Assembly (NCBI RefSeq): GCF_036178845.1
Contig: NZ_CP108070.1
Coordinates: forward strand, 6,200,001 to 6,264,000
Direction: 5' to 3'
Length of the DNA: 64,000 nucleotides
DNA from: Streptomyces sp. NBC_00271
GTDB taxonomy: Bacteria > Actinomycetota > Actinomycetes > Streptomycetales > Streptomycetaceae
Part shown: piece by piece, positions 9,045-16,560 of the stretch
Numbering within the stretch: position 1 is the stretch's first letter
Layout: each line of letters opens with the position of its first letter
Program-made: the position numbers and the translations under genes
The notes under the pieces: generated by a model
What the model saw: the letters and a program-made list of their open reading frames with translations, nothing else
Database searches by the model: none
Told to the model about the DNA's origin: nothing

Positions 9045-9410
9045 ATGACTGCTGAGGGGGAGGGTGTGGCAGCCCGGGCCATCCGCGTGCGTCTGGACGG
9101 GACGGCGAGCGACAGCGATGTCGGCGCCCTGAAGAAGTGGCTGGAGCGGGAGAGGCCGCTGGAGCAGCTGGTCAAGCGGGGCGATCTCAGGATCGAGGAG
9201 CGCGCCGGGACCGACGAACAGGGCACACCCATGGGCGTCGGCATGGACATCGTGCTGGTGCTGATCGGGGCGGGCGCCGAGACGCTCTTCAAGGAACTGC
9301 TCGCACAGGTCAAGAGCGCGGTGCGGGCCTGGAGCGACAACCGTGGCTCCGTGGAGAACGGCGATCCGCCGGAGGCCCGTGTCGATCCCCTGGGTCCCGA
9401 CGAGAGGTAG
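9045..9410 (+). CDS. EACC1-like effector-associated constant component
   Basis: 121 residues: IRVRLDGTASDSDVGALKKWLERERPLEQLVKRGDLRIEE..., then MGVGMDIVLVLIGAGAETLFKELLAQVKSAVRAW. This layout, with an N-terminal strand, a W-L-x-x-E helix, the central MG....D block and a G-A/G-G-A hydrophobic helix, matches the EACC1 family described from actinobacterial NTPase/caspase conflict systems. It is thought to be an adaptor that pairs with varied effectors. It ends four bases before the caspase fusion gene, which supports one operon. Family assignment is from memory of the pattern, not a search. Confidence 0.75.
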   Translation: MTAEGEGVAARAIRVRLDGTASDSDVGALKKWLERERPLEQLVKRGDLRIEERAGTDEQGTPMGVGMDIVLVLIGAGAETLFKELLAQVKSAVRAWSDNRGSVENGDPPEARVDPLGPDER

Positions 9411-9414
9411 CGGG

Positions 9415-12117
9415 GTGGACCGCTTCGACCCGCGGGGAAAGGTGAACCGGGCGCTGCTGGTCGGTGTGTCCGAGTACGAGTTCACGCGGCCGAAGCACCG
9501 CGACGGCGTCCCGGGCCAGCTGCCCGCCGTCGCCCACAACCTCGCCGTGCTCGTACGGGCCCTGGAGCGGGGCGGAGTCCTGCGGCCCCTGGAGATCACC
9601 GTCGCGCGCTCGCCGCGGCTGGCCGACTTCCGCCACTCCCTGCGCGCGGCCGCCGGCTCCGCCGAGGGGCTGCTCCTGCTCTACTTCGCCGGACACGGCG
9701 CCGTGCCCAGCGCGGGCGACGAACTGTGGCTGCAGATGCGCGACGCCGAGGTCGTCCGGGGCGAGACGGCGGGGTTCGAGGGCGCGGCCCGGTTCACCAA
9801 CGTGCTGCGCATCCTCGCCAACAGCCACGCGGAGCGGATCGTGGTCGTCCTCGACTGCTGCAACGCGGGCAATGCCGCCCGGGTGTGGGAGGCCGTGGAG
9901 CGCCCCGACGTCCGACGGCGCGTCTCGGTGCTGATGAGCGTGCAGGCCAACCACCGCATCGACGCGGGCGACGCCGACACCCCCACGCCGTTCACCGCCC
10001 GGCTGGTGGAACTGCTGACGTCGGGCATCGAGGATCAGCAGGGCGAGGGGCAGAGCGACGAGGGGCGGGGCGACGAGGTTCACTTCCTGGCCCTCGCGGA
10101 GGCGCTCAGGGCCTACATGTCCACCCACCACCGGACCGAACGCGGGGAAGCCTGGGAACCGCAGAGCCGCACGGAGAACCCTCCGGTGGACGTGGTGCTG
10201 GGGATCCGGGCGGGGGCCGGGAGACCCGTCGGCTCCAGGGCGGAGGCCGTCGCACCGGGCGCCCCGGGCCGCCCCGTGTCCGGTCGCCGTCGGCGGCGCG
10301 CCTTCGGGGCCCGGGTGCGGGCGGCGACGGCCCGGTTACGGTCCGGGGCCGTGGGCCCGCTCGCGCTCCTGCCCTCGGCTCCCGCCCCGAACCGGCTCCC
10401 CGGCCAGGCCCCCGGCGGACGATCGACCCGCCGCGCCGCCGTCGTCCTCCTCGTCCTCGCCGCCGCCCTCGGTCTCGTCGGCTACTTCGTCGTCGACAAC
10501 GCGGCCTCCGACCGGTCCGCCTGCGGCCCGCCCGTGGAGCTGCGGCTGCTCACGGACCCCGATCTCGAATCCACCGTCCGCAAGGCGGCCGACACCTATC
10601 TCACGTCGGCGGCGAACACCACGGGCGGCGGCTGCCGGCGCAGTGGGATCACGGTGTACGGCGCGGGCTCGGCGGCCGTGGTGGCGGGCCTGCGCGACCA
10701 GTCGGACCCTTGGCAGCGGCCGGTGAGCGACGACACCGACCCGCAGCGCGACATCGGGCCCCAGCCGGACATCTGGATCCCGGGCACGCGCGCGACCGCG
10801 GCCAGGGCGCGCTCCTTGGGGGTGGCGCGGACCTACGTGACGCTGGAGCCGGACGCGGCGCCGTTCGCGTACTCCCCGATGGTGCTGTCGCTGCCGCAGG
10901 GCATCGCCGAGGACTCGCAGCGCGAGCGGACCGGCGACTCGCTCGCGGGCCTGCGGGCGAAGCTGGCGCGCCGGGACAAGAGCGCCTCCGTACGGCGCCC
11001 GGACCCGGAGAACACCGACTCCGCGCTGCTCGCCACGGTCGGCCTCTACGGTCCGGGCAAGGCCGACGTGGGCCGGGCGGAGGGGAGCGTGGCCCAGACC
11101 GGACCGCCCGCGCCCACCGCCGGTGACCTGCTGTGCACCCTGCCCGACGACGCGGACACCGACCGGAGCACCGCGGCCCTGGTACCGGAGTTCCTGATGG
11201 TGAGCGGGGTCGGCTGCGACCGGACGACGCGCACCCCGCGGATGGCCGAGTACCCCGACGACGTGCCGGGCCTGACGCCCACCTTCGTCCGCGTCCGCTG
11301 GACGGGCGGCGACAAGGACGAGGCGGCCCGGGACGACGCGGTACGGCGTTTCCACGACTGGCTCACGGGCACCGGTCTCGCGGTCTTCGGGCAGGACGGC
11401 TTCCGCGCCCCTTCCGGCGCCCGCGCCTTCCTCGCCGCCCACGACTCGGCCACCGGTCTGATCTCCGACCCCGGCCGGCCCGCCGGGGCCGCGGGCGCCG
11501 AGGCGATGGACACGGCCCTGAACCAGTACCGCAACGCCAAGGGACCCGGCCGGGTGCTCTTCCTGCTGGACAGCTCCGGCTCGATGGCCGGCCTGTGGCA
11601 GGGGCCGGGCGGCGCCCCCGGCATCCTCAAGCAGTCCCTCGGCGGACTCGGCACACAGGACGAGTACGGCGTCTGGTCCGTGGCCTCCCCGGGCCGGAGC
11701 CCGTACGCCGAACTGCTGCCCTTCGGACCCCATAAGCGCGGCGACGCCGAGCGGGCCCTTGACCGGGCCGCGGTCAAGGACGCGGAGGCCGACCCGTACG
11801 GCGCGCTGAAGGCGGCGCTGGACACCATGGACCGGAAGGGCAGGGACGACGACCGCCCCGAGCTGATCGTCTTCCTCACGGACGACGAGGACGACAACCA
11901 CCTCACGGCGAAGGGCCACTTGGACGAGCTGCTCACCGCGGCCCGCGCCAACGGCGTCCCGGTGGTCATGGCGGCCCTCGACAGCGGCGGCTGCGCCAAG
12001 GGCAGGCCCGACCAGCGGATCTCCGACGCGAGCGGCGGGCGCTGCCTGGACACCAAGGGCGACCTCGTGGCGGGCCTGCGGGACGAGGTCGCGCGCACCG
12101 GAACGGGGGACGAGTGA
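9415..12117 (+). CDS. Caspase-TM-solute-binding-VWA fusion protein
   Basis: 900 residues. The N-terminal ~210 residues are a caspase-like peptidase with His94 in YFAGHGA and Cys148/149 in VVLDCCNAGNA. A basic linker leads to one membrane helix at about residues 342-362 (AAVVLLVLAAALGLVGYFVV). Outside lie a periplasmic-binding-protein-like region (365-690) and a von Willebrand A domain with the MIDAS DSSGS at 719-723 and a second acidic block FLTDDEDD. The caspase would be cytosolic and the SBP/VWA half extracytoplasmic, an arrangement that could turn outside binding into inside proteolysis. GTG 9415 has GAGAGG upstream. Its stop overlaps the next gene's start. Confidence 0.85.
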   Translation: MDRFDPRGKVNRALLVGVSEYEFTRPKHRDGVPGQLPAVAHNLAVLVRALERGGVLRPLEITVARSPRLADFRHSLRAAAGSAEGLLLLYFAGHGAVPSAGDELWLQMRDAEVVRGETAGFEGAARFTNVLRILANSHAERIVVVLDCCNAGNAARVWEAVERPDVRRRVSVLMSVQANHRIDAGDADTPTPFTARLVELLTSGIEDQQGEGQSDEGRGDEVHFLALAEALRAYMSTHHRTERGEAWEPQSRTENPPVDVVLGIRAGAGRPVGSRAEAVAPGAPGRPVSGRRRRRAFGARVRAATARLRSGAVGPLALLPSAPAPNRLPGQAPGGRSTRRAAVVLLVLAAALGLVGYFVVDNAASDRSACGPPVELRLLTDPDLESTVRKAADTYLTSAANTTGGGCRRSGITVYGAGSAAVVAGLRDQSDPWQRPVSDDTDPQRDIGPQPDIWIPGTRATAARARSLGVARTYVTLEPDAAPFAYSPMVLSLPQGIAEDSQRERTGDSLAGLRAKLARRDKSASVRRPDPENTDSALLATVGLYGPGKADVGRAEGSVAQTGPPAPTAGDLLCTLPDDADTDRSTAALVPEFLMVSGVGCDRTTRTPRMAEYPDDVPGLTPTFVRVRWTGGDKDEAARDDAVRRFHDWLTGTGLAVFGQDGFRAPSGARAFLAAHDSATGLISDPGRPAGAAGAEAMDTALNQYRNAKGPGRVLFLLDSSGSMAGLWQGPGGAPGILKQSLGGLGTQDEYGVWSVASPGRSPYAELLPFGPHKRGDAERALDRAAVKDAEADPYGALKAALDTMDRKGRDDDRPELIVFLTDDEDDNHLTAKGHLDELLTAARANGVPVVMAALDSGGCAKGRPDQRISDASGGRCLDTKGDLVAGLRDEVARTGTGDE

Positions 12118-13616
12118 TGCGGCGACGGCGGCGGACATCCGGGCGGGGCCCTCGGCGGGTCCACGGACGTATCCATGGGCGGGTCCACGGACGAGTCCAT
12201 GATCGGGTCCACGGACGAGTCCACGGGCGGGTCTACGGATACGGGCTGGCCCTCGCTCTGCTGCTGACCGCCTGCACCGGCGGCGGGCAGGCCGGACCCG
12301 GACCCGGCGCCACGGTCTCCCCGGGCGCCTCCGGGGACATCGTCGTGGCCAGCGGGCGGGACGTGACCGGCAAGGGCGGCATCCGCCAGCAGCTCATCGA
12401 CGCGTGGAACGCCCGGCAGGACAGGGAACACAGCGACGTCCACGCCCGCCTGGTCGAACTCCCGGGCTCCGCCGACCAGCAGCGCAGCCAGCTGCTCGGC
12501 GCGCTCCAGTCCGGCAGCGCCCAGTACGACGTCGTCAACCTGGACGTCACCTGGGTGCCGGAGTTCGCCGCCGCGCACCTCATCCGCCCGCTGCCGGACG
12601 ACCTGGTCGACGCGGACGTCATCAAGTCGGTCGCGAGCACGGCCCGTTGGGGCGGAAAGCTCTACGCCGTCCCCTTCAACAGCGACGTCGGCCTGCTCTA
12701 CTACCGCCGCGACCACCTCAAGCAGGCGCATGTCCAGGACACCGACCTGAGCAAGGGGATCACCTGGCGGCAGCTGCGGGACCTCATCGACGCCGTCGAG
12801 GCGCCGGGCCGGTCGCGGCCGAAGGGGTACGAGAAGGGCTGGACCACCCAGCTCGGCCCGTACGAGGGACGCACGGTCAACGGGATCGAGGCGTTCCTGT
12901 CCGCCACCGACGGCGCAGGCCTCACCGACGAGAGCGGCCGTTACACCGCCACCGTCCAGCAGTTGACGGACGGGATCGCGGAGCTGCGTGCCCGCACCCA
13001 GGGCGCGTACACGCTCGGGGACGCGGTCCGCTCGGACGAGGGCGAGTCGCTCACCGACTTCGCGGACGGGCGTACGGCGTTCCTGCGTCACTGGCCCTAC
13101 GCCTACCGCACCCTGCACCAGTCCCTGAGCGACGCGCAGCTCGGCGTCGCTCCGCTGCCCGGCCGGGCGGTGCTCGGCGGCCAGAACCTGGCGCTGGCCG
13201 GATCGTCCCAACGGGTCGACAAGGCAAGGGAGTTGATACGGTTCCTCACCAGCAAGGAGAGCGAACGCTGCCTGCTCGACGCGGGGTTCGCGGCCACCCG
13301 GGAAACCGCGTACACCGCCGACGACGTGACCTGCGGCGTGGCGAGGACACCCGGAGCGGCCTCCCCCTCGGCCTCGCCCTCAGGCGAGAGCGCCGACCGC
13401 ATGCCGCGCGACGACCACGGGCGTCCCGCGTACGCCCGGACGATCCTGCTCCCCGCGCTCCGGCGCGCCGTCCAGCGCCCCCGCACCCCCTTGTACGGCG
13501 CGTTCACCCAGACGTTCGCCACCGAGCTGGGCAGGCTGTTCAGCGACGACCCGCCGGGCGACGCGGAGTTGGCCGCCGCACTGGACAAGGAACTCAGGAA
13601 GGCTCTCCCGGGCTGA
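12117..13616 (+). CDS. Extracellular solute-binding lipoprotein with repeat-expanded leader
   Basis: About 499 residues. The N-terminal leader is unusual: about 40 residues of Arg-rich RVHG-type repeats precede the hydrophobic segment GLALALLLTAC, whose LTAC is a lipobox. The mature part resembles family 1 ABC binding proteins (VVASGRDVTGKGGIRQQLIDAWNARQ, YAVPFNSDVGLLYYRRDHL, FLTSKESERCLLDAGF). ATG 12117 overlaps the caspase-VWA stop; GTG 12114 is an alternative. No permease or ATPase gene is adjacent, so it may act as a sensor for the caspase-VWA protein rather than in transport. The 3' end overlaps the convergent M20 gene. Confidence 0.85.
   Translation: MRRRRRTSGRGPRRVHGRIHGRVHGRVHDRVHGRVHGRVYGYGLALALLLTACTGGGQAGPGPGATVSPGASGDIVVASGRDVTGKGGIRQQLIDAWNARQDREHSDVHARLVELPGSADQQRSQLLGALQSGSAQYDVVNLDVTWVPEFAAAHLIRPLPDDLVDADVIKSVASTARWGGKLYAVPFNSDVGLLYYRRDHLKQAHVQDTDLSKGITWRQLRDLIDAVEAPGRSRPKGYEKGWTTQLGPYEGRTVNGIEAFLSATDGAGLTDESGRYTATVQQLTDGIAELRARTQGAYTLGDAVRSDEGESLTDFADGRTAFLRHWPYAYRTLHQSLSDAQLGVAPLPGRAVLGGQNLALAGSSQRVDKARELIRFLTSKESERCLLDAGFAATRETAYTADDVTCGVARTPGAASPSASPSGESADRMPRDDHGRPAYARTILLPALRRAVQRPRTPLYGAFTQTFATELGRLFSDDPPGDAELAAALDKELRKALPG
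12156..12239 (+). repeat. Seven tandem 12-bp units in lipoprotein leader
   Basis: Units related to CGGGTCCACGGA alternate with CGAGTCCACGGG-like units, giving a 24-bp higher-order period and encoding RVHG/RIHG/RVHD. Copy number could change in frame, lengthening or shortening the signal-peptide n-region. Confidence 0.85.
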
Positions 13617-14848
13617 CGAGATACGCGAGCGCCCCCGACACCAGTGTCCGCACGCCCGGTGCGAGCGTCGCCAGTGTCGGGCGCGAACTGCGGGCTGTGA
13701 TTGCTGGGCACGGCCGCGAACTTCTCCATGAGGTCGTCGCCCGGGGCCGCGTCCCACACCTCGGCCGGGGTGCTGGTCACGAACCAGTAGGAGTACGGGA
13801 TCTTCCCCTCCGCGAGCCGGGGGAAGTCCTCGCTGCCCATCGCCGGGCCCGGGTCGAGGATCGTCCCGGTGCCGAAGACCTCGCCGTGCACGGCCGCGAC
13901 CCGGCGGTCGGTCTCCGGGTCGTTGACGGTGACCGGGAAGCTGTTGCCGACGACGACGTCGGGCTCGCGCGGGCAGCCGGCGGCCAGGCACTCGCCCGCC
14001 GCGATCCGCCGGATCGCCGCGATCATCCGCTCACGGACCTCGTCCGACTGCGTACGGATGTTGAGGGCGATCCGGGCCTCGGCGGGGATGATGTTGTGCC
14101 GGGTGCCCGCCTCGATCCGTCCCACGCTCAGCACGGCCGACTCGCGTGCCGCGAGCTCCCGGCTGACGACGGTCTGCAGCCGGGTCACGAGGTACGCGGC
14201 GGTGACGACCGGATCGACGGTCGACTCCGGACGCGAACCGTGCCCGCCCCGCCCGTGCACGACGATGTCCACGTCGGTGGAGGCGGACATGATCAGGCCG
14301 GGTGAGTGGGCGTAGAGCCCGGCGGGACCGGGGGCCGCGTGCTGGGCGAGCAGGACGTCCGGCCGCGGGAACCTCTCGTACAGTCCGTCCGCGACCATCG
14401 CCGAGGCGCCCTCGCCGGTCTCCTCGGCGGGCTGCCCGAGCACGAGGAGCGTGCCGGACCAGGCGTCGCGTCCGGCGGCGAGCGCCCGGGCCGCGCCCGC
14501 CAGCCAGGTGACGTGCAGATCGTGCCCGCAGGCGTGCATCAGGCCGGGCACCCGGGAGGCGTACGGCAGTCCGGTCTCCTCCTGCACCGGCAGCGCGTCC
14601 ATGTCGGCGCGCAGCAGCACGGTCGGCCCGGGCCCGTTGCGCAGGACGCCGACGACTCCGGTGCCGCCGACGCCGGTGGCCGTGTCGAACCCGGACGTGC
14701 GCAGCCGGTCGGCGAGCGCGGCGGCCGTGCGGTGTTCCCGCAACGACAGCTCCGGGTGCCGGTGCAGGGCCCGGTAGAAGTCCTCCAGGTCGGGAACCGG
14801 GAGGTCGGCTGTGAGGTCCAGTGCGATACGTGCGGCAGGCGAGATCAC
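13594..14848 (-). pseudogene. M20 metallopeptidase/amidohydrolase with 3' frameshift
   Basis: The frame from ATG 14848 encodes an M20/amidohydrolase enzyme (HPELSLREHRTA, LLRADMDALPVQEETG, GLMHACGHDLHVTWL, GQPAEETGEGASAMV, GRGGHGSRPEST, MGSEDFPRL). These enzymes remove acyl groups or amino acids from small amides. At about 13675-13684 the expected end NHSPQFAP...PTLATLAPGVRTLVSGALAYL continues in the next frame and stops at 13594. The unshifted frame would instead run antisense through the SBP gene to 13103 as low-complexity protein. This means either a real mutation or a sequencing error. It lies 54 bases after the small secreted-peptide gene on the same strand, possibly as an operon. Confidence 0.8.
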
Positions 14849-14902: not shown

Positions 14903-15064
14903 CTATCGAAGGGCCTGCGCGTGGCCCGTGAGGTGCTGGAGGTGCGGGTTGGTGGCTTCGGCCGCCCGGGCGGGGCCGGCGTTCGCTGCCAGGACCAGGG
15001 CGGCGACGGCGACGACGGCCGCACCGAATCCTCTGAAGTAGCGCGCGGAAATACGTCGGAGCAT
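14903..15064 (-). CDS. Small secreted peptide precursor (53 aa)
   Basis: ATG 15064 to TAG 14903 encodes MLRRISARYFRGFGAAVVAV, then ALVLAANAGPARA and the tail AEATNPHLQHLTGHAQALR. It is a basic start, hydrophobic core and ARA-A signal peptidase I site, leaving a predicted 19-residue mature peptide. A GAGG ribosome binding site lies eight bases upstream. It is divergent from an XRE-TPR regulator and upstream of an M20 peptidase gene, and palindromic sites lie in its promoter. By analogy with RRNPP systems it might be the ligand of the TPR protein; that is inference. It could also be a small structural secreted protein. Confidence 0.72.
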   Translation of the reverse strand: MLRRISARYFRGFGAAVVAVAALVLAANAGPARAAEATNPHLQHLTGHAQALR

Positions 15065-15089
15065 GGCGACCTCGCAACAACAGCGGCGT

Positions 15090-15105
15090 ATTAAGCAGGC
15101 TTAAT
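15090..15105. promoter_or_regulatory. Palindromic operator in peptide promoter
   Basis: ATTAAGC-AG-GCTTAAT, perfect 7-bp arms. It overlaps the likely -10 region (TAATAC on the minus strand) of the peptide gene. A further half-site GCTTAAC lies at 15111-15117. It is a likely binding site of the divergent XRE-TPR regulator. Confidence 0.7.
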
Positions 15106-15196
15106 CCGCCGCTTAACGTAGGGGTTCGAAGCATCAAAGGGCAAGGGGCGCAAGGGGAGTTGGACAATAGTCAAAAGTTGGCCGAGTGTAAGTCGG

Positions 15197-15216
15197 GTTA
15201 ATGGCATGCTTAATCC
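15197..15216. promoter_or_regulatory. Second GCTTAAT operator at XRE-TPR start codon
   Basis: GGTTAAtggcatgcTTAATCC-like imperfect dyad directly before ATG 15217, sharing the GCTTAAT half-site with the palindrome at 15090. It suggests autorepression. No ribosome binding site is visible there, so the mRNA may be leaderless. Confidence 0.6.
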
Positions 15217-16560
15217 ATGGCGGAGCGTGACGGCCCGGAGGTCATCGGGCGCAGGGTTCAGCAGTTGCGTACGGAACGCGGACTGACGCAGAAACAGTTG
15301 GCGGAACCGGCGTACACGCCCGCGTACATCTCCACCCTGGAGGCCGGGCGGGTGCGGGCCTCCGAGCCCGCGCTGCGGCACATCGCCGAGCGGCTCGGGG
15401 TGGCGTACGAGGAGATCGCGACCGGGCGCCCCGCCCATCTCGCCACCGATCTGCGGCTGCGGCTCACCGACGCCCAGCGCACGCTCGCCACCGGCGAGGC
15501 GGAGGTCGCGGCGGAGCAGTACGACGCGCTCCTCGCGGAGGCGGACGCGCACGGGCTTGTCGCCGAGCAGGCCGCGGCGCTGCTCGGGCTCGGCGAATGC
15601 GCCCTGGAGACCGGGAACCTGGAGACCGCGCGGGAACGTTTCGAGGCCTCGGAACAGCGCCTCGGCGACGCGCCCCTCCCGAACCGGGTGCCCGCCCTGC
15701 GCGGCCGGGCCGTGTCCCACTACCTCGCCGGTGAACTCCGGTACGCCTGCTATCTGTTCGAGTCCACCCTCGACGAGCTCAACCGCACGGGGATGCACGA
15801 CCCGGACGCGCTGCTGCTTCTCTACACGGGCGTCATCGCCCCGTACATGGACATGGGTGCCCATGCGCGGGCCGCGCAGGCGGCGGAGTTCGCGCTCGCC
15901 CTGGCGCCCCAGGTGGGTGATCCGGCCCTCGTCGCCCGGATGCACCGCTCCGTCGCCCGCACGATGATCGCCGAGGGCCGGGTCGCCGAGGCGGACGCCT
16001 CCCTCGCCAAGGCCTCCGAGCTCTACCGGCAGCTCCAGATCCGTACCGAGCTCGCCAACTGTCACTGGATGCGCGGCTACTTGTATGCGCAGAACGGTGA
16101 ATTGGATCGGGCGGAGGGCGAGTTGCGGGAGGCGCAGGCGATGCTCTCCGCGAAGCGCGCCGCGCTGTACACGAGCCAGGTCAACGTGGAGCTCGCGGAC
16201 GTACTGCACCGGCGGGGGAAGTCGGCCGAGGCCGCCGTCCTCCTCCACGAGGTGCTCGGTGACCTCAGTCCCGAGCGCGGCGCCGTGCACTCGGCCGGCG
16301 CGCACCGCCTGCTCGGCATCATCGCCGAGGACGCCCGGGACACGGAGTCCGCCGAGGAGCACTACGTGCGGGCGCTGAGTCTTCTCGAGCGGGCGGGGGC
16401 GGCGGGGGATCTCGCCGACCTGTGCCGGCTCCTGGGGGACCTGTTGCGTCGCACGGGACGGGTGGAAGCGGCCCTCGACGCCTACCGTACGGGCCTCGGC
16501 CACCGTACGGCCCCCGGCACCACCACCCTGGGCCCGGCCCCGGCCCAGCCCCCGCTGTAA
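15217..16560 (+). CDS. XRE-family HTH regulator with C-terminal TPR repeats
   Basis: 447 residues. The N-terminal ~70 residues form an XRE helix-turn-helix (IGRRVQQLRTERGLTQKQLAEPAYTPAYISTLEAGRVRASEPALRHIAERL). The rest is a long array of helical repeats with TPR-type A/G/Y/A patterns (AAALLGLGECALETGNLETARERFEASEQRL, AHRLLGIIAEDARDTESAEEHYVRALSLLERAG). This architecture is shared by peptide-sensing RRNPP regulators and by Streptomyces regulators of unknown ligand. It is cytoplasmic. The divergent small secreted peptide and the shared GCTTAAT palindromes suggest a signalling pair. Confidence 0.88.
   Translation: MAERDGPEVIGRRVQQLRTERGLTQKQLAEPAYTPAYISTLEAGRVRASEPALRHIAERLGVAYEEIATGRPAHLATDLRLRLTDAQRTLATGEAEVAAEQYDALLAEADAHGLVAEQAAALLGLGECALETGNLETARERFEASEQRLGDAPLPNRVPALRGRAVSHYLAGELRYACYLFESTLDELNRTGMHDPDALLLLYTGVIAPYMDMGAHARAAQAAEFALALAPQVGDPALVARMHRSVARTMIAEGRVAEADASLAKASELYRQLQIRTELANCHWMRGYLYAQNGELDRAEGELREAQAMLSAKRAALYTSQVNVELADVLHRRGKSAEAAVLLHEVLGDLSPERGAVHSAGAHRLLGIIAEDARDTESAEEHYVRALSLLERAGAAGDLADLCRLLGDLLRRTGRVEAALDAYRTGLGHRTAPGTTTLGPAPAQPPL

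Follow-up and report, generated by a model that had tools for sequence, protein, structure and literature searches.

A conserved peptide-regulator gene pair of Streptomyces as a candidate signalling or effector module

In the window of Streptomyces sp. NBC_00271 analysed here (64,000 nucleotides; contig NZ_CP108070.1, positions 6,200,001 to 6,264,000), a small gene for a peptide with a Sec-type leader and the gene of an XRE-TPR regulator, composed of a helix-turn-helix (HTH) and tetratricopeptide repeats (TPR), are arranged divergently, with two copies of an operator-type sequence between them. Judged from the gene neighbourhoods of relatives, peptide and regulator are a conserved two-gene module, and this module is a good candidate for a system of peptide signalling or one with a peptide effector. 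The locus had been noted in an earlier reading of the letters alone (the sequence-only reading), which proposed a unit of cell-cell signalling. The features of the locus are the following.

14903..15064, minus strand: small Sec-leader-like peptide gene, 53 codons (53 amino acids), ATG start; matched by a hidden Markov model (HMM) in 80 of 81 loci
14963..15064, minus strand: conserved peptide leader (residues 1-34), with A15, L23 and P31 in 82 of 82 peptides
14903..14962, minus strand: near-neutral tail (the 'mature peptide' of the sequence-only reading) and stop codon; ratio of nonsynonymous to synonymous substitution rates (dN/dS) 0.75 (30 pairs), absent from 17 of 82 peptides
15069..15075, minus strand: peptide-gene ribosome-binding site, GCGAGGT
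15115..15120, minus strand: -10 hexamer TACGTT of the predicted peptide promoter, overlapping operator O1
15139..15144, minus strand: -35 hexamer TTGCCC, with an 18-bp spacer to the -10 hexamer
15091..15116, no strand: candidate operator O1, TTAA-N6-TTAA-N8-TTAA, exact
15188..15213, no strand: candidate operator O2, GTAA-N6-TTAA-N8-TTAA, one mismatch; ends 3 bases 5' of the regulator ATG
15217..16560, plus strand: XRE-TPR regulator, 447 amino acids; HTH at about residues 7-69, TPR helices at about 75-430
13103..14848, minus strand: open reading frame (ORF) of an M20 amidohydrolase downstream of the peptide gene; outside the conserved module

Peptide gene, regulator gene and operator-type sites

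Conservation of the pair was followed in 81 loci, i.e., the window and the best 80 of 382 relatives, all at least 82% identical in the best segment. The 80 loci are titled Streptomyces, except one 'Actinobacteria bacterium', and their regulators are 82-99% identical to that of the window, which is the only match in its own genome at E <= 0.001. The leader HMM recovers the small gene in all loci except that of S. scabiei (L079), where it found none; in 75 loci the gene is divergent from the regulator within 900 bp, and in five it lies 1.4-1.8 kb away. Among 199 Streptomyces genomes the same model matches 79, with 82 hits, 72 of which are divergent beside the regulator, at a distance of 109-260 bp in 70 cases and of 633 and 1,583 bp in the other two. 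The remaining ten comprise three second, weak hits, weak hits in G073 and G155, and five in the disrupted loci of G022, G124, G139, G176 and G013 (see below). Among the matches listed, and counting only genomes whose regulator position is among them, the peptide occurs in 72 of 73 genomes with a close regulator (at least 80% identity, plus G062 at 72%) and in none of 22 with a distant one. The check proposed in the sequence-only reading, on whether relatives conserve the peptide frame beside this regulator family and the palindromes, did not refute its observation. The exceptional genome, G092, has the regulator and an exact operator (C1:3386612-3386642) without a leader-peptide match; its peptide may be lost or too divergent.

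The 53-residue frame itself is real, with its ATG start and ribosome-binding site, and we regard it as coding because substitutions in the hydrophobic h-region of the leader follow codon position (54/17/123 at first, second and third positions, 30 pairs). The notion that the gene is too short for routine calling does not apply everywhere, because many homologues carry an annotation (120 of 131 hits listed); the names shown are those of hypothetical or uncharacterized proteins. The peptide belongs to no Pfam family, and its single NCBIfam match is insignificant (E 0.18).

The pair is disrupted in a few genomes. The peptide gene is retained by a regulator that is broken or nearly gone in G022, G124 and G139 (L144, L147 and L148), stands beside a regulator without HTH in G176, and is present without a regulator in G013. 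TPR proteins of the family lacking the HTH were likewise observed at L118, L142, L149 (G206, G176) and L117 (G372); in the last, neither peptide nor peptidase was seen. In six loci (L028, L030, L031, L042, L053 and L054) other sequence separates the peptide gene from the regulator gene, and each of the two genes keeps an operator-like site; some of the intervening stretches presumably contain a DUF397-like gene.

Both promoters share an architecture of three TTAA boxes, whose starts are 10 and 12 bp apart. The GCTTAAT motifs of the sequence-only reading are real, but the actual unit is TTAA-N6-TTAA-N8-TTAA, which is conserved and specific to this locus. O1 and O2 are the sole sites with at most one mismatch in the 12.28-Mb genome. 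With at most two mismatches, six sites are found in the genome, O1 and O2 included, against 20 control matches, and a regulon beyond the locus was rejected, as only four additional two-mismatch sites stand against these 20 controls. Accordingly, the scan of the window's genome at this threshold gave no further operator above background that would mark an output gene.

An operator with at most two mismatches lies inside the 400 bp before the regulator in 75 of the 81 loci and is exact in 57; at this threshold and distance none was found in L017, L020, L027, L035, L039 and L079. Displaced peptide genes (the five at 1.4-1.8 kb and that of L053, together 0.6-1.8 kb off) are each preceded by an operator, and these six operators are the only sites with at most two mismatches more than 400 bp from a regulator start in 878 kb. 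The predicted -10 hexamer of the peptide gene shares two bases with box 3 of O1. The order of -35, spacer, -10 and operator recurs in 56 of the 81 close loci, in 11 of 40 distant loci (L082-L121, with regulators 55-77% identical where matched) and in 0 of 4050 shuffles, which were simple and not dinucleotide shuffles. An operator ending in the -10 hexamer was found at 69 places in 68 of the 199 Streptomyces genomes, with none in the reversed control; G016 has a second such site elsewhere in its genome. In G206 and G176, the HTH of the regulator and boxes 1-2 of the operator are both lost, while the TPR part and the peptide are retained. We take this joint loss in nature as a hint that the HTH targets the boxes. 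On these patterns the TTAA sites would be the operator of the regulator, and their layout at two promoters would read as that of a repressor of both genes.

Leader and tail of the peptide

The two parts of the peptide differ strongly in conservation. Across 82 peptides, two of which come from the distant loci (L094 and L118), the invariant residues A15, L23 and P31 are accompanied by A16 in 81, A27 in 80 and N28 in 68. No gap occurs at residues 8-30, and five peptides carry one additional residue before P31. The leader has a basic n-region and an AxA site; its best 19-residue Kyte-Doolittle mean is 1.94 in the window, with a median of 2.03 over the 82 peptides. In 30 pairs, dN/dS is 0.50 in the n-region and 0.25 in the h-region to P31, as opposed to the near-neutral value in the tail, where substitutions are spread over the codon positions (133/122/149).

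The length of the tail after P31 follows a similar division, with 1-2 residues in 17 peptides, at least 16 in 65, and none between. The 17 short forms, among which L049 was counted after manual re-sorting, stop 1-2 residues past the invariant proline that ends the hydrophobic leader, and they fall into three clades of the regulator tree. By these substitution and length patterns the conserved product is the leader, not the tail.

This bears directly on the sequence-only proposal that an exported 19-residue tail is the pheromone read by the TPR regulator. The adjoining TPR regulator and the seemingly cleavable leader speak in its favour, and fast-evolving pheromones occur in RRNPP systems. Nevertheless, the tail evolves at dN/dS 0.75, shows 57 gap columns in the 30 pairs, varies between 16 and 76 residues where present and is absent from 17 of 82 peptides, while the regulators meanwhile stay 82-99% identical to the window's. 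We therefore do not follow the mature-peptide claim and consider a tail pheromone highly improbable.

The boundary of conservation lies at P31-A34, and three lineages stop there, which is consistent with an active peptide formed by the end of the signal peptide. Covariation between regulators and truncated peptides was uninformative: only positions 178 and 289 are common to the three truncated clades, and their residues at these positions also occur in about a third of the remaining regulators. The leader was likewise compared with the 655-Da peptide imported by BldK, for which we know of no published sequence; by hand arithmetic, one stretch within the window's leader matches this mass, but the same segment of the S. 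violaceoruber-type peptide does not, and the candidate was dropped as numerology. The imported peptide is presumed to signal aerial growth, according to passages of PMC9640686.

Peptidase partners and a possible mechanism

The 40 distant loci give insight into the ancestry of the module. Their divergent side carries an M64 motif in 26 cases, a neprosin-type motif in nine, an S33-type motif alone in one and the small peptide in two (L094 and L118), where peptidase types were assigned by short motifs; in the remaining two, L111 (with a masked run) and L117 (with an HTH-less regulator), nothing was recognised on this side. Pfam searches with eight partner fragments or proteins returned M64 for four, neprosin for one, alpha/beta hydrolase for two and no hit for L082. 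The S33 label refers to Pfam Hydrolase_4/Abhydrolase matches together with prolyl aminopeptidase matches below cut-off. Six of the 26 M64 loci have an S33-type hydrolase gene between the M64 gene and the regulator, and in the two S33 cases viewed in full the operator precedes the M64 gene located behind the S33 gene. An operator with at most two mismatches is present in 34 of the 40 loci, including 33 of the 36 that hold a peptidase. In view of these 36 peptidase partners and 33 shared operators, the module probably derives from an older pair of regulator and peptidase.

In a tree of 100 regulators, 19 distant ones are split from all 81 close ones by one fully supported branch, so that it is enough to assume, for these regulators, that the peptidase was replaced by the leader peptide once; the regulators of L094 and L118 are absent from the tree. 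The divergent pairing of this regulator with M64 or neprosin peptidases in other Streptomycetaceae may itself be undescribed.

It might be argued that the leader is a relic of the ancestral secreted peptidase gene, still transcribed and with no function except keeping the promoter. Peptide and peptidase indeed lie behind the same operator and on the same side of the regulator, and the search of the window's genome for an M64 gene gave none. A relic is difficult to reconcile, however, with the purifying selection on the leader evident from its substitutions by codon position (54/17/123), with three invariant residues at near-fixed spacing in 82 peptides, and with the leaders of the M64 and neprosin partners, which do not show the same pattern when compared by eye. 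We consider this explanation improbable.

The predicted fold of the regulator consists of the XRE HTH and nine TPR helix pairs (predicted local distance difference test, pLDDT, 90.5). It resembles NprR, Rap and AimR, and the similarity extends to MalT and to an anaphase-promoting complex subunit, while sequence matches to PlcR and ComR are restricted to the HTH. The RRNPP-type fold of the sequence-only reading is thus upheld in its HTH and nine TPR pairs, but the fold is also like that of MalT, and sequence kinship to PlcR and ComR is confined to the HTH. The A helices line the TPR groove.

A chain of events that would account for these patterns can be outlined, and we propose it tentatively as the most likely explanation, as a whole at somewhat less than an even chance. 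The XRE-TPR protein, assumed to be cytoplasmic, would act as a repressor that binds O1 at the -10 region upstream of the peptide gene, and the same repressor would bind O2 at the start of its own gene, resulting in autoregulation. The peptide gene would yield a short Sec-targeted leader, the functional part of which would end at Pro31 plus the signal-peptidase site or, in truncated forms, at the stop codon, and the tail would serve export and cleavage only. Once the leader is exported or inserted, a fragment of its C-terminal half would return to, or remain in, the cytoplasm and be sensed in the TPR groove, by which repression of both genes would be relieved as in RRNPP systems. In the ancestral pair, the same regulator family and operator would have controlled a secreted peptidase. 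Sequence comparison bears out the pair, the conserved operator-like sites, the split into leader and tail and the peptidase partners of distant relatives; we infer the identity of these sites as the operator, repression, export, processing and the role of the leader as ligand.

Carried to its conclusion, this chain would amount to an actinobacterial RRNPP-like signalling system with the export leader as its pheromone: the regulator of a secreted peptidase would have retained operator and groove while the leader alone came to stand in for the peptidase as its target, and a stop codon would have replaced the signal-peptidase cut in three lineages. In this specific form we regard the proposal as rather unlikely. 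Several observations weigh against a leader ligand. The TPR groove is conserved across the whole family, in distant relatives as well as in close ones. Operator sites rise above background at this locus only, and the peptide outlasts broken regulators. Furthermore, ordinary signal peptides give a dN/dS of 0.36 (8 pairs of peptidase leaders), from which the leader is not set apart, and its dN/dS is for this reason unusable as proof of a special role. The case for the leader rests on the end point of conservation and on the positions of the stop codons.

The first three of these points favour an alternative in which the leader peptide is the effector. It would be a small peptide of the membrane or an exported one, with a task of its own, and the regulator that represses it would sense another ligand, e.g., oligopeptides or a metabolite. 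This alternative is strong because the groove is equally conserved in distant relatives, and it agrees with the distant pairs, whose regulators appear to control a peptidase: 35 of 40 loci have an M64 or neprosin motif and one more an S33 motif only, 33 of these 36 with the operator. Against it stand the near-strict co-occurrence of peptide and regulator and the failure to place the peptide in any Pfam family or, significantly, in NCBIfam. We judge it a realistic possibility, with a probability of roughly a third. The hydrophobic forms of 32-37 residues and the operator on the promoter could also suggest a toxin-like peptide restrained by the divergent XRE repressor, but such a peptide would hardly persist where the regulator is broken or nearly absent, as it does in some of the genomes above, and this is the least probable of the explanations considered.

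Known systems and neighbouring genes

NprR combines an HTH with nine TPRs and controls a secreted protease. The RRNPP pairs NprR-NprX, PlcR-PapR, Rgg-SHP and PrgX-cCF10 share with the present module an HTH and TPR receptor of 250-500 residues (447 here) beside a small propeptide. The adjacent propeptides range from 10 to 100 residues, compared with 53 here, and the small gene is divergent within 900 bp in 75 of 81 loci. By contrast, the present pair is actinobacterial, its tail is not conserved, its sequence kinship with PlcR and ComR covers the HTH only and its leader ligand is putative. The C-terminal mature peptide of RRNPP systems, which is under selection and matched to its receptor, has no counterpart in the tail after AxA, given its near-neutral evolution and frequent absence. 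Passages of PMC10075063 treat RRNPP systems as systems of Firmicutes.

A closer parallel to a leader-derived signal is provided by cCF10, described in parts of PMC7117660 as the seven C-terminal residues of the signal peptide of a lipoprotein. As in the cCF10/PrgX system, the end of a signal peptide would act as the functional peptide, and the two candidate operator sites, one overlapping a promoter, parallel the two operator sites of that system, one of which overlaps the promoter (passages of PMC7117660). Unlike cCF10/PrgX, the present locus involves no lipoprotein, no plasmid and another operator, and processing of the leader is putative. The regulator-M64/neprosin pairs of Streptomycetaceae have the same regulator family and the same operator, with at most two mismatches in 33 of 36 peptidase loci, and differ in that the partner is a full peptidase gene and not a leader-only peptide. 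Regulators of the MalT type are distinguished from the one studied here by its N-terminal XRE HTH and by the absence of an ATPase domain from its domain scan. The NsdA family of Streptomyces also comprises TPR-like regulators, but the NCBIfam score (NF053720, 33.2 bits) is below the cut-off of 75.

Most likely, the module works like an RRNPP system or like a module of a repressor and an exported product; membership in RRNPP is not claimed. We found no Streptomyces pair of this kind in the open-access literature searched and do not claim that none is in print. If the leader is a pheromone, the pair would offer an intracellular peptide receptor that can be studied by genetics in Streptomyces; if it is only an effector, it would still represent a conserved, unnamed family of small peptides with a dedicated regulator. 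In either case, a self-contained module conserved in a large part of Streptomyces, with a candidate operator located to the base, would make peptide signalling or small-peptide control directly testable in laboratory Streptomyces. The replacement of a peptidase gene by one that encodes only a leader, with the operator architecture retained, would be an unusual evolutionary step.

The M20 peptidase, which the sequence-only reading had included in the unit, is not a constant member and was rejected as a part of it. A match to M20 begins no more than 600 bp from the start of the regulator in only 12 of the 80 fetched loci, lies further away or on the opposite side in eight, and was not found in 60. 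By heuristic ORF calls it is the immediate co-directional neighbour in 10 of the 80, and none of the 14 largest families of immediate neighbours on the peptide side occurs in more than 11.

In the window, the M20 ORF extends to 581 amino acids, with the family match ending near residue 359, and overlaps the end of a convergent gene for a solute-binding protein (12114-13616). Adjoining the latter, a plus-strand frame of 924 amino acids (9343-12117) appears by eye to fuse a caspase-like domain to binding-protein and VWA-like parts.
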